A stretch of 47,659 nucleotides of DNA from Iphinoe sp. HA4291-MV1 (GTDB lineage: Bacteria; Cyanobacteriota; Cyanobacteriia; Cyanobacteriales; Nostocaceae), in NCBI GenBank assembly GCA_019359415.1, contig JAHHHH010000059.1, forward strand, positions 1 through 47,659. The letters run 5' to 3'. A program made the translations under genes and the position numbers. Under the pieces are notes generated by a model. It made no database searches. It had not been told where the DNA came from and saw only the letters and a program-made list of their open reading frames with translations. Positions within the stretch are counted from its first letter, which is position 1. Every line of letters starts with the position of its first letter. Below are positions 4,025 to 8,753 of the stretch, piece after piece.

Positions 4025-4120
4025 AGTTGATGCACTTTTTGATAATTTTGTCAATGTCTTCAAGGCAATTGTGACAATTTAGGGCATGAGTTTAATCAGC
4101 CGTAGGTTGGAATATTTAGA

Positions 4121-4251
4121 TCAGTTATCAGTTATCAGTTTGAAGAAGAATTCAGAATACAGTATTCAGTAGGAAGAAATAAAGAATTTAGTTTTCTGAC
4201 GACTGACGTCACGACTCCTTGTTCACTGTTCACTGTTCACTGTTGACTGTT
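4121..4251. repeat. STRR-type repeats between the tspO copies
   Basis: TCAGTTATCAGTTATCAGTT (4121-4140) and GTTCACT-type heptamers (about 4221-4251) occupy the gap between the two tspO genes. The second array runs right into the stop codon of copy 2. These are short tandemly repeated repetitive sequences typical of filamentous cyanobacteria. Confidence 0.75.
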
Positions 4252-4725
4252 TTAAGCATCTTGAGGATTGAGTCGAATCATTGCCCAAGTGGTGTATGTT
4301 CCTATTGGACTCCAAAGCAAGTAAGGAACGAGGAGTAGTGCTGCCCAAAGCGAAACAGGTAAAACTGCAAGTGTTAATATAATGCCTACAATAAAACCCG
4401 CGCCACCAAGAATTGTACCAACCTTGAGACTGCGAAGGCGGAACATGACAGGGGTGTATGCAATAGTAAGAATTTCCACTAGTAGGTACAATCCCATTCG
4501 CACCCAAGTTATGGTGGTTCCTGGGTTCTTTTCCCAGACAATATAAGCAGACCAAGCACCGCAAACAAATATAATAGTCCAAATAACTGGAATCGCTGCT
4601 TCAAAAGTTAACCACCTAGGTCTTTGTAGACGTTTGAACCACTTGCGATCGCCTGGAGTAATGAAGTTAGCACCTAACGCAACTAAAAAAGTCACTCCTG
4701 CAATTACCATCCAAGATTTAATCAT
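4252..4725 (-). CDS. TspO/MBR family protein, copy 2
   Basis: A 157-residue TspO-family membrane protein and close paralogue of the downstream copy. Matching landmarks are MIKSWMVIAGVTF at the start, FITPGDRKWFKRLQRPRWLTFE, PVIWTIIFVCGAWSAYIVW and the C-terminal LLWSPIGTYTTWAMIRLNPQDA region. Five hydrophobic segments fit the family. It is the upstream member of the pair, so it may share a promoter with copy 1, although STRR DNA separates them. TspO binds porphyrins and lipophilic ligands; no partner is visible here. Copy 2 is more basic around the first loop (RKWFKRLQRPRW) than copy 1 (VKWFAQLTRPQW), which may mean different ligand or lipid contacts. Confidence 0.87.
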   Translation of the reverse strand: MIKSWMVIAGVTFLVALGANFITPGDRKWFKRLQRPRWLTFEAAIPVIWTIIFVCGAWSAYIVWEKNPGTTITWVRMGLYLLVEILTIAYTPVMFRLRSLKVGTILGGAGFIVGIILTLAVLPVSLWAALLLVPYLLWSPIGTYTTWAMIRLNPQDA

Positions 4726-5094
4726 GCCTTCTCACCCTTTGCATGGCTCTTTTATCACGCCATATAGTGAGATTTTCTCAGTTTGAAGGCTGATTTCTCA
4801 TCATACCTGAGTGGGAAGTGGTTAAAAGTCTACATCCTGAAGGGGGTAACAAAGAGGCTACAAAGCAGACTGGATAAGAGACATAGCACATAAACCACGA
4901 CAGAAAACCTACTCCAATCTATCTATGAGGCTTGAGCAAAACCACGTTGACCAGAAACATCTTTAGATAAAATGGCAATTACTTCTGTTTCATTAAATTT
5001 AATTTCCATACAGAGTTATCACAAAATACAAAATTTTATTATATAAATATAATTTGGAATTTAACATGATGGTCTTTTAATCCGTCACAGAGGT
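4726..5094. other. intergenic region left of the MITE
   Basis: No gene seen. Bases 5085-5094 (TCACAGAGGT) are the left copy of the target duplication of the adjoining insertion. Before the insertion this DNA would have been the immediate upstream region of the AT-rich gene, so its original promoter probably lies here. Confidence 0.5.
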
Positions 5095-5313
5095 CAGGGC
5101 AAACGCATCTTGTCAATAAAAACGCCTGATTCTCAATAAATGAGAAAAAGATTGCATTAAGCTCTAATTATTGAGAATAAATAAGATGGAATTTTTTACC
5201 TTTAATCTACGGATAAAAAAATAAGATTAGCGATAAATCTTATTTCTGCGTCACATACACAAGTTACGTTTTTTGTCCATTTAGTTTTGTGAATTTTAGA
5301 TGCGTTTGCCCTG
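5095..5313. mobile_element. 219-bp MITE with 16-bp terminal inverted repeats
   Basis: The ends CAGGGCAAACGCATCT (5095-5110) and AGATGCGTTTGCCCTG (5298-5313) are perfect inverted repeats. They are flanked by a perfect 10-bp direct repeat, TCACAGAGGT (5085-5094 and 5314-5323), as expected for a target duplication. The AT-rich interior has two further inverted repeats, 5129-5139/5168-5178 and 5219-5228/5236-5245, and no transposase frame. End length and duplication size would suit a non-autonomous IS4-type element, but the family is inference. It inserted just before the start of the next gene. Confidence 0.85.
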
Positions 5314-5317
5314 TCAC

Positions 5318-5323
5318 AGAGGT
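5318..5323 (+). promoter_or_regulatory. ribosome binding site inside the MITE target duplication
   Basis: AGAGGT, five bases before the ATG at 5329, is the only good Shine-Dalgarno for the AT-rich gene. It is part of the duplicated target site, so the insertion kept a working ribosome binding site but moved the old promoter about 230 bp away. Confidence 0.6.
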
Positions 5324-5328
5324 ACAAA

Positions 5329-7320
5329 ATGAAGTGTTCCCGAACCTTATTTTTTGTTTTGGTAATAGCTACTTTTTTGGCAAGCAACTTTAATGCTAGA
5401 TTGAATGCTCAAAATTATAGAAAATTTGGAACAAATGAGATAGTCAAACAACAGCCTGCTTCAGTAAAAATATCTGTTAATGAACTAACTGCACAAAATG
5501 CAGCTATTAAAGATTCGGATTCTTCAGATGAAAAGCCTGCACGAGTACCATTTTGGAAGAACCCAGCAGTAATAGCAATATTACTATTATTCGGTGGTTT
5601 AATAGACCGTCTTATTTATTTTCTAAACGCTATTGGTTGGAATTTAACGCATATTCCAAAAGCATTAATAAATTATTACGATTGGCGAAAGTCAAAGTCA
5701 ATATTAGAGTCTTCAAAAGAACATGAAAATAATCAAAGAACTAAAAAACAAAAAATCGAAAATAACATGAAATTATGTCTTAGGTTAAAGGAAAACAAGC
5801 AATTATCTAATAGAAGGCTGAGTCAAATAGTTAAAGTTCTAATTGAATATCAACTTTCACAAGAAAAGAAAGATTATACTGAAAATGAACAAGAAGAAAT
5901 TGCTAAAGACATTGCTTATATTATTAAAAATGAGTCAGAAATAGAAGAATCTAATAAATTATTGGAGCAATCGTTATACACCGCTGGATACGATTCAAAA
6001 ATAATTAATCAAGATATAAGACTTTGTATTAAAGTAAAAAATAGATTAGAAAGTGAAAATCAAAAGATAATAAAATTACTTAATGTGGTCAAAATTCTTA
6101 TCGAATATGAAATACTTAAAGGAAAAACACCTGATGAAAACGAATTAACAGGAATAATTAACAATGAAAAAGAAATATCAGTAGAAAACTGTTTTGTAAT
6201 ACACAAAAAATCAGAGCGGATTACAAAATATCTTGAAGCTATAGAAGCTATAGAGAAAGATGCAAAGTTTTATTGCTATGTAACAGTTAAAGAAGGATTT
6301 ATAGCTCCACTTTATCTCATAGCTGGTCCTTTACGTTATTTTGAGGAAGATTGGCCAAAATTAGTTAGAGAATACAAATATTCTATACAAGAAGGAGATA
6401 ATTACTTTAAAAATCAAGATTTAGGAACGTTTAAATCATCTATTTTTACTACTTGGATTGGCTGGGGACCGAGTATTCCCGTCTGTTCCTGCTATAAATG
6501 GCAAAAACAAATAACCCTTCAATATGGCTATGGTGATGAAAATAACTCAATTCCCATTCTTATTCCTAATGACCAAAAAAGAAAAGATGAATACAAAACA
6601 GTTTTTTTTCAAAATCAAACTGAGATTGTAAAACAGATTGAAGTAACAGCAAAAATTGCTCTAATTTCTCAGTCAACATCTGCTTCAAAAATACAGGAAA
6701 TAGCAGAAGCACAGGAAGAACTTAGAGATCCTATCCGTCCTGAAATTGTCCTCACAGATGTAAAAAGCTATAATATTCCAAATACTATAACACACTACTA
6801 CTCTGCTTACCTTTGGATTTTATTTGGAATAACTAATCAACAATCTTTTGATTCTTCATCTTTTAGGACAAAAATAGACCAGGCAAAAAATATAAATCTT
6901 CAACCAACAAATCATTTCAACGGACCAACTATCTGGCACGATATGTTGCCGTTCTTTGAACATATAAATATCGCCAGTAAATACTCATATGACATCCATA
7001 AAAAAATATTTGCACGGCAAGTATTAGAATCTTTGAAAGCAATATATGATGCTTTATCTGATAAGGTAAAAAACGAAATTAGATTCGTATATTTTTGCGC
7101 TTTCGATGACTGCAATTGCGGTATGGATAACCCCTTAATTTCTGAGTCACTAAAGCAAGATTTAATAAAGCAGTGTTTGCAAGATTTTATAGACGAACCA
7201 AACAGCACATGGCACCCGATGAAAAATGTAATTGTATTAGATCGCTCAGATATTCTACCTGCTTGTGAATTACCCAACATAATTAACAAGCTAAATAGGC
7301 ATATGCAAAACAAAAAATGA
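5329..7320 (+). CDS. AT-rich orphan membrane-anchored protein
   Basis: A 663-residue protein I do not recognise. Residues 5-22 are a signal-like hydrophobic stretch, and a clear transmembrane helix lies near 79-98 (AVIAILLLFGGLIDRLIYFL). A Lys/Glu-rich, probably coiled-coil region runs from about 120 to 310. In it two units match: 147-195 (KLCLRLK ... VKVLIEY) and 230-279 (RLCIKVK ... VKILIEY), an internal duplication. The C-terminal half (315-663) looks globular, with Cys-rich spots CSCYKW and CAFDDCNCGMD. It is visibly richer in A/T than its neighbours, uses many AAA/ATA codons and has few HIP1 sites, which suggests acquired DNA. Function is unknown; a membrane-tethered sensor or a defence-type protein are only guesses. 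Confidence 0.7.
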   Translation: MKCSRTLFFVLVIATFLASNFNARLNAQNYRKFGTNEIVKQQPASVKISVNELTAQNAAIKDSDSSDEKPARVPFWKNPAVIAILLLFGGLIDRLIYFLNAIGWNLTHIPKALINYYDWRKSKSILESSKEHENNQRTKKQKIENNMKLCLRLKENKQLSNRRLSQIVKVLIEYQLSQEKKDYTENEQEEIAKDIAYIIKNESEIEESNKLLEQSLYTAGYDSKIINQDIRLCIKVKNRLESENQKIIKLLNVVKILIEYEILKGKTPDENELTGIINNEKEISVENCFVIHKKSERITKYLEAIEAIEKDAKFYCYVTVKEGFIAPLYLIAGPLRYFEEDWPKLVREYKYSIQEGDNYFKNQDLGTFKSSIFTTWIGWGPSIPVCSCYKWQKQITLQYGYGDENNSIPILIPNDQKRKDEYKTVFFQNQTEIVKQIEVTAKIALISQSTSASKIQEIAEAQEELRDPIRPEIVLTDVKSYNIPNTITHYYSAYLWILFGITNQQSFDSSSFRTKIDQAKNINLQPTNHFNGPTIWHDMLPFFEHINIASKYSYDIHKKIFARQVLESLKAIYDALSDKVKNEIRFVYFCAFDDCNCGMDNPLISESLKQDLIKQCLQDFIDEPNSTWHPMKNVIVLDRSDILPACELPNIINKLNRHMQNKK

Positions 7321-7340
7321 GAATGAAATATTTAACAATT

Positions 7341-8753
7341 CTATCGAAACCTCATCAAGCCATCAGGAAACAAAGCAACCTGTGCTTCCAACTTCTGATA
7401 GCTGGGATATTTCTGTGGTTGCTTTATACTGTAAACAACCTGAAAAATATGTGCGATCGCATCCAGAAATTCACTACATTTAACCTTAGGCGTTCCATAA
7501 ACACGACCGAAGGGCTTATAGAATAATCTTATTTGCGAACCAACTTGCATCTCTGTTAGAGGAGGCTGTTCGTATTCTACATCCACCTCATAAAAACCCA
7601 TCCGCAAAAAAGGAGAACGCTTCTTTGCCAAATCGGTTTCAATGTACCATCCCTCTGCATTGTTTGGATGTCGATCCTGGAGCATTTGTTGTTCCATTCG
7701 CGCTAGCAGCGATCGCACTCGCCAAGTTCCTTGTAAAGAACCTTCAAAGGCGACATAGCCACCAAAACCTGCGCTTGGGAACGAGAAGAAAGAAGCCATT
7801 CCCTCTACTTTTGCATCTGCTGTAGTACGAATTGCCCATAGGTGATAAGTACAATCAGGTTGTTGGGCTAAAGCAAGAGCTTGAGCGAAGTCCTCTAGCT
7901 TAATCGTCAGGAGATTAGGAGGAAAAGCATTTTGATAGACTGACATGACAGCAGAAAAATCTGCATCTGCTGTACTAGTCACTTCGCGGATGTCCATTGG
8001 TTTGCAGGGATCGTAGCCAACATAGCAATCAAGGGGCAGGAGGTTAACTTTCTGTTGTCCATTGAGAAAAGCCGCCATCTCCTGGTACTCGGAGCAATTT
8101 TCTGGTGTCTCGATCCGCATAGCCCAGCGTAAATATTCATGGACGATTACTTTGACTATTTGGCTGGGAATTGCTTTAGACCACTCTTTTTGGAATATCT
8201 TGGTAATCAGTATCAAATTGAGGACAGATTCTTGCTCTTCGGATAACGCTGGCTGAACGTAGGGAAAATCTAAACCATAGTAACCCCATTTATTCCAAAT
8301 AAGGCTGCGCTTAACGGGATCGAGGTTATCTTGAACTTTAGTTGGTTTAAACGGATCGTTCATCTCACAGACAATTGCTCCGAGATCACGTCCTAACTTT
8401 TGTTTGGCATCATTAACTAGTAGGTTTTCGGTAGCTGCAAGGATCGCTTTACCCATTCCATTCTGACGAAAGAGGGGCGATACTACCAAAAACTCTATCA
8501 CTCCAGCATTGGCTTCGGCGAAAAAATCGGCGATCGCTCCAGCTATTAATTTTCCAGCTTCGACAGCGATAATGATGTGGTAGTTGTTTTTGCCGTACCA
8601 GCCTTGGGCTTTTAATTCTAAATACTGCTCCATGTTCTCCAAAGATTCCCGCTCATCTGCATCGGGAAACTCAGGTACATACAATTCCTGGTAGAAGTAC
8701 CGTAGTAGTTTCTTATCTTCTCTAGAGTGAGTCAGTTCAACATAATCAATCAT
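7341..8753 (-). CDS. GNAT family N-acetyltransferase, long two-part form
   Basis: A 470-residue protein. The N-terminal 150 residues form a GNAT domain: IIIAVEAGKLIAGAIADFF, then motif A VIEFLVVSPLFRQNGMGKAIL, whose acetyl-CoA pyrophosphate loop RQNGMG is at 96-101. The rest includes a second region (about 230-420) that may be a degenerate GNAT-like fold, without a clear Q/RxxGxG loop. The length is about three times that of a simple GNAT. The substrate is unknown. It converges on the AT-rich gene with a 20-base gap. A 20-bp tandem duplication lies upstream of its start. Confidence 0.75.
   Translation of the reverse strand: MIDYVELTHSREDKKLLRYFYQELYVPEFPDADERESLENMEQYLELKAQGWYGKNNYHIIIAVEAGKLIAGAIADFFAEANAGVIEFLVVSPLFRQNGMGKAILAATENLLVNDAKQKLGRDLGAIVCEMNDPFKPTKVQDNLDPVKRSLIWNKWGYYGLDFPYVQPALSEEQESVLNLILITKIFQKEWSKAIPSQIVKVIVHEYLRWAMRIETPENCSEYQEMAAFLNGQQKVNLLPLDCYVGYDPCKPMDIREVTSTADADFSAVMSVYQNAFPPNLLTIKLEDFAQALALAQQPDCTYHLWAIRTTADAKVEGMASFFSFPSAGFGGYVAFEGSLQGTWRVRSLLARMEQQMLQDRHPNNAEGWYIETDLAKKRSPFLRMGFYEVDVEYEQPPLTEMQVGSQIRLFYKPFGRVYGTPKVKCSEFLDAIAHIFQVVYSIKQPQKYPSYQKLEAQVALFPDGLMRFR

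Follow-up and report, generated by a model that had tools for sequence, protein, structure and literature searches.

A probable ISAs1-type MITE with a target duplication over the Shine-Dalgarno motif of a nearly orphan cyanobacterial gene

Genes and repeats at the locus

The window, a stretch of 47,659 bases from Iphinoe sp. HA4291-MV1 whose sequence style suggests a filamentous cyanobacterium, is the entire contig C75 of a 7.36-Mb draft genome in 140 contigs. A TspO/MBR family gene and a divergent gene for a 663-aa protein flank a non-coding element of 219 bp (Table 1). Its 16-bp inverted ends agree at 16/16 positions (0 mismatches) and are bracketed by the perfect 10-bp direct repeat TCACAGAGGT. 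The element ends 15 bp before the ATG; the right-hand repeat copy and the spacer ACAAA (5324–5328) fill the interval. The original prediction had read this arrangement as a MITE with perfect ends and a perfect target duplication that retained AGAGGT five bases upstream of the start codon at 5329 and displaced the old promoter by 219 bp plus the duplication. Our coordinates agree with it on the repeats and the motif and put the shift of the upstream DNA at 229 bp.

Table 1. Features of the insertion site in the window.
Feature	Position	Strand	Basis or remark
TspO/MBR family gene, divergent upstream neighbour	4252–4725	-	frame and domain match
Best guess for old -10 box, TATAAT	5048–5053	+	candidate; weak -35 AATACA at 5025; 9/12
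Left target duplication copy, TCACAGAGGT	5085–5094	.	direct repeat, 10/10 bases
MITE	5095–5313	+	219 bp, non-coding
Left TIR, CAGGGCAAACGCATCT	5095–5110	+	end search
Subterminal inverted repeat arm, ATTCTCAATAA	5129–5139	+	core ATTCTCAA invariant in 7-sequence alignment
Partner arm, TTATTGAGAAT	5168–5178	+	core ATTGAGAA invariant in 7-sequence alignment
Right TIR, perfect	5298–5313	-	end search
Right target duplication copy, TCACAGAGGT	5314–5323	.	direct repeat; includes AGAGGT
Shine-Dalgarno-like AGAGGT	5318–5323	+	5 nt before ATG
663-aa gene	5329–7320	+	frame intact; A+T-rich; no Pfam, NCBIfam, PHROGs or PADLOC match

A search for the ends that allowed two mismatches returned only these two in the 47,659 bases, against a mean of 0.01 in shuffled sequence. 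The direct repeat is detected as 11 nt (GTCACAGAGGT, 5084–5094 and 5313–5323) because the right end closes with a G, the same base as the flanking G5084; siblings show 10 bp. Only one frame of at least 50 aa touches the element (61 aa, minus strand, 5202–5387). The Rfam search gave one match, sub-threshold and outside the element, and the reading as an RNA element was rejected.

The 663-aa frame begins with a signal-peptide-like stretch, which supports the start at 5329. Searches of Pfam, NCBIfam, PHROGs, PADLOC, PDB sequences, viral contigs and phage records gave no match to the protein, and its single-sequence fold has a mean pLDDT of 35.8. The gene is absent from 149/149 relatives and from all seven genus mates, and a two-sequence profile detected it in 0/385 other genomes of the phylum, a sample from a larger group. 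We also identified a weak 73-residue match in Bacteroides fluxus and a hypothetical protein that is a distant relative, encoded on a Novosphingobium plasmid (25.5% over residues 277–579, E 2e-22). Given the plasmid relative, the gene comes close to being an orphan without strictly being one: the earlier description of it as an orphan holds across the relatives and the phylum sample and fails at Novosphingobium. The gene lies in an A+T-rich block (window 5000–7499; 28–34% G+C versus 37–47% around it) that is a probable acquired island, and the gene itself is probably rare and horizontally acquired. On the far side of the TspO gene, between it and a TspO-like neighbour identified by eye, window positions 4120–4255 are a dispersed repeat with 38 to 60 match rows in each of eight genomes of the genus; among the rows listed, most fall at query positions ~576–711.

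Copies in the same genome and relatives in other genomes

Comparison of the 219 bp with its own genome gave 15 rows, 11 of which match the outer 68–71 bp of the left end; one is a near copy (87%) on contig C86. The degenerate end CAGGGYAARCGCATCT, searched with at most one mismatch, occurs 74 times in the genome, and the reversed-pattern control occurs on neither strand (0 matches). On these counts and the shuffle mean of 0.01, we rejected a chance origin of the repeats. From the list of 74 ends we matched up by eye 15 MITE-sized pairs spanning 219 to 401 bp, leaving out three loci with only one recognisable end each (L004, L008 and L011). A perfect 10-bp direct repeat brackets 11 of the 15 pairs; the other four are without a duplication and were counted against the MITE reading. 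The elements fall into several internal types (e.g., 224 and 266 bp) and the 219-bp element is therefore one subtype.

The closest copy, on C86 (L002, G000:C86:24992-25254), has no target duplication. Close to its left end it also carries ~44 additional bases with many ACACCC-type repeats. Another own-genome element (L012, G000:C138:138464-138791) has an extra segment of ~104 bp with a long inverted repeat of its own, AAAATGTCCCGCCG...CGGCGGGACATTTT; this segment resembles a smaller palindromic element lodged within the MITE.

Relatives of the element extend beyond this genome: the 219 bp had a DNA match in 51 of the 150 genomes searched (own included). The near-full-length relatives (214–219 bp) are in genomes G006 (82%), G005 (81%) and G071 (77%), and their direct repeats match at 9/9, 9/10 and 9/10 bases, respectively. 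Scanning 29 loci from relatives yielded 18 end pairs, one of them a span of 1525 bp. Ten of the 18 have a duplication and eight do not, the latter again counted against the MITE reading. An alignment of seven members (two without the left end) keeps the subterminal inverted repeat ATTCTCAA...ATTGAGAA and has a strongly conserved right end. The 219-bp relative in G005 (L084, G005:C171:95829-96047) lies between two frames of 495 and 453 aa on the same strand, and the first start codon of the second frame falls inside its right end; this locus is possibly a gene split by a MITE.

Source of the transposase

The original prediction had proposed a search for a full-length insertion sequence with like ends, and we found two. 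Contig C7 carries a 1652-bp element with closely similar ends and broken transposase frames that match PF13808, PF01609 and NF033564 (ISAs1-family). The second (L113), in genus mate G007, is intact: it measures 1643 bp, has an open frame of 388 aa and is flanked by the 10-bp duplication ACCTGCGGTC. Its ends, CAGGGCAAACGCATCT and CAGGGCAAACGCACCT, are identical to the 16-bp MITE end on one side and match it at 15/16 positions on the other. Ends of this kind bound elements that bear an ISAs1-family transposase. Furthermore, the transposase-distal end of L113 aligns with the right end of the MITE past the TIR, a short and modest similarity whose score was reached by 19 of 2000 shuffles. As to an origin of the MITE by internal deletion from one particular IS, no parent matching both MITE ends was present among the inspected loci.

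ISAs1-family transposases were found in 43 of the 60 genomes searched (own included). In the draft genome itself, the 16 match rows to NF033564 included no complete intact transposase gene. At least ten contigs start or stop 109–127 bp inside an end of this kind. Four of the inspected contig ends (L026, L039, L040 and L042) have the same sequence, which can be aligned to the C7 element's left end with 88 identities, 25 mismatches and six gaps; a fifth (L062) differs. This pattern in the contig sequences suggests that further multi-copy, full-length elements may have been lost in assembly. The simplest reading is probable mobilisation in trans by such a transposase.

Empty sites

For the window insertion and nine siblings, we fused the two flanks and searched with the resulting junctions, counting a junction as spanned only when at least 30 bases matched on each side. 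Five of the nine sibling junctions have uninterrupted sites. Those of L005 and L012 lie in six genus mates each, with a match for L012 in the own genome too; L009 has them in seven genus mates, L010 in two, and L035 in one and also in the own genome. Some of the L012 matches must be paralogues, because one genome can have more than one. For L035, one uninterrupted paralogue in its own genome agrees with the junction at 120/120 positions and another at 119/120. Alignments to empty sites in G006 gave 108/120 for L012, without gaps, and 98/121 for L010; those to G007 gave 94/110 for L009 (one gap) and 142/173 for L005 (eight gaps). Junctions L003 and L052 were not spanned, and L007 and L051 were excluded since one side matched together with only ~20 bases of the other. 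The flanks of a further element (L014) lie ~4 kb apart in G006. The siblings with empty sites are other internal subtypes having the same ends.

An uninterrupted window site would read ...CCGTCACAGAGGTACAAAATG without the 219 bp. This junction was not spanned in the joined-flank search because the region is strain-specific: homology with the genus covers the TspO gene to ~4830 and then stops, and 5314–8753 has no match in any of the seven genus mates. Likewise, no match spanned the junction of a 219-type relative (L083). The comparison with strains lacking the element, as originally proposed, gives empty sites for siblings with the same ends and none for the window insertion or for the 219-bp subtype. 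The original prediction had named a missing second copy, or relatives with neither direct repeats nor an empty site, as arguments against a MITE. We found instead further copies, direct repeats in the three near-full-length relatives and empty sites for siblings.

The repeats could conversely have come together by chance or form a static regulatory hairpin instead of a mobile element, an idea that agrees with the lack of an empty site at the window position. Dozens of like ends, the sibling duplications and the sibling empty sites contradict it, and we regard it as almost certainly wrong.

Interpretation and comparison with known elements

We put at about 0.93 the probability that window positions 5095–5313 are an ISAs1-type, non-autonomous MITE that moved in trans and left a 10-bp duplication over the Shine-Dalgarno motif of the gene. 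This reading rests on observed features: the ends, the duplication, the sibling copies, the like-ended transposase elements and the sibling empty sites. Against it stand the lack of an empty site for this insertion, the end pairs without a duplication (the closest own-genome copy among them), the different internal subtypes of the siblings with empty sites, the lack of a complete intact transposase gene in the draft genome and the modest subterminal similarity to the intact IS. In the order of events that we infer for the window site, an ISAs1-family transposase supplied from elsewhere in the cell would recognise the shared CAGGG... ends, the element would insert with a 10-bp stagger and host repair would duplicate TCACAGAGGT. 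The target would lie over the Shine-Dalgarno motif by chance, and the right-hand copy would keep AGAGGT in place so that the gene could still be translated. Any old promoter would be pushed 229 bp back, and its transcript leader would be longer by the same amount.

MITEs are established in cyanobacteria (PMC10969869, PMC3542288, PMC3049150). Anabaena sp. 90 is described as having 147 mostly intergenic MITEs with no evident similarity to the IS ends of that genome (PMC3542288); on that description they are unlike the window MITE, whose ends match an IS. The same source lists ISAsp2, an ISAs1-family element of 1627 bp (PMC3542288). L113 has like ends and a 10-bp duplication, whereas the window element has 219 bp and no transposase gene. 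Nezha is another cyanobacterial MITE, for which ISNpu3-like elements are the proposed movers (PMC3049150). The Nezha and Anabaena sp. 90 elements resemble the window MITE in being short and multicopy with inverted ends; for Nezha, the likeness concerns this general description. Among the papers listed in searches for ISAs1 together with MITEs, no title or abstract opening describes the 219-bp element.

The analysis describes a 219-bp MITE subtype of ISAs1 type, related forms of which occur in several genomes of one family. The locus also offers a clear example of a mobile element that hits a ribosome binding site without destroying it; the site survives because the element's own target duplication restores it. 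The insertion is clean but ordinary and changes no general picture.

Correia elements of Neisseria are likewise MITEs, often immediately upstream of genes, and their ends, we presume, differ from those of the window element. Promoters and an IHF site are reported for them (PMC10969869); neither is shown in the window element.

Effect on the downstream gene

Since the duplication regenerates the ten bases that precede the spacer, both the reading frame and the Shine-Dalgarno motif are retained, and we infer a small effect on translation. The DNA that once lay upstream has been shifted 229 bp away from the ATG. With it moved the best-looking candidate for the old -10 box, TATAAT at 5048, which is now ~275 bp before the ATG; several other candidate sites score 8–9/12. 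The original suggestion that the element may provide or block transcription found no support: consensus scans of 4726–5500, which can miss such an effect, returned no promoters and no terminator-like sites (0 and 0), and a looser promoter scan gave only weak sites (8–9/12), which fall on either strand and both within the element and beyond it. The insertion might have silenced the gene and left it to decay behind the displaced promoter. The distance of the 5048 box fits this scenario, as does the gene's absence from relatives, to which it is therefore dispensable. The intact 663-codon frame and the lack of a terminator-like site in the element speak against it, and we consider silencing unlikely.

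We also predicted how accessible the Shine-Dalgarno motif is when the element is present and when it is removed. Transcription starts assumed at 5055 and 5062 give close values (0.50 with the element versus 0.47 without it, and 0.51 versus 0.52), whereas for 5070 and 5080 the element raises them from 0.07 to 0.47 and from 0.05 to 0.52. Assumed starts inside the right end give low values (5290, 0.12; 5300, 0.07; 5308, 0.10). The strand from 5085 to 5340 folds better than its shuffles (z -4.75), mostly through end-to-end pairing. On these models, the element could leave expression unaffected, help it mildly or harm it.

A frame of at least 100 aa begins within 20 bp of an end, reading outward, in 3 of 25 elements. 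One is the window element; in the other two, L084 and L013, the first start codon of the frame falls within the element. Relatives are represented among the 25 only by the ten of 18 pairs that already had a duplication, two of which (L098 and L100) have identical flanks. These counts give no clear sign that capture of a ribosome binding site is a habit of the family, and the insertion onto this one looks like chance.

Such data bear on whether the element now works as a 5' regulatory region, either a promoter or a structured leader, and hence keeps its ends and duplication perfect. Its position only 15 bp from the ATG, the strong fold with its largely end-to-end pairing and the raised accessibility for starts at 5070 and 5080 are consistent with such a role, as are the promoters reported in other prokaryotic MITEs (PMC10969869). 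Set against this are the empty consensus scans for promoters and terminators, the nearly equal accessibility for 5055 and 5062 and its low values for 5290, 5300 and 5308, and the lack of a clear habit of lying before start codons. We therefore judge a regulatory role very unlikely. A more specific proposal, which we rate lower again as a long shot, is that a horizontally acquired, A+T-rich gene received the MITE between its promoter and its ribosome binding site and that the MITE became its regulatory leader, the duplication preserving translation and the end-to-end hairpin insulating the Shine-Dalgarno motif from upstream RNA.

At the inner edge of the left TIR, the minus strand has TTGACA (5110–5115), an outward-pointing, -35-like box. 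By eye it forms no hybrid promoter with the flanking bases present here. The box is common to the relatives in G006, G005 and G071 in the alignment and could build hybrid promoters with other flanks.
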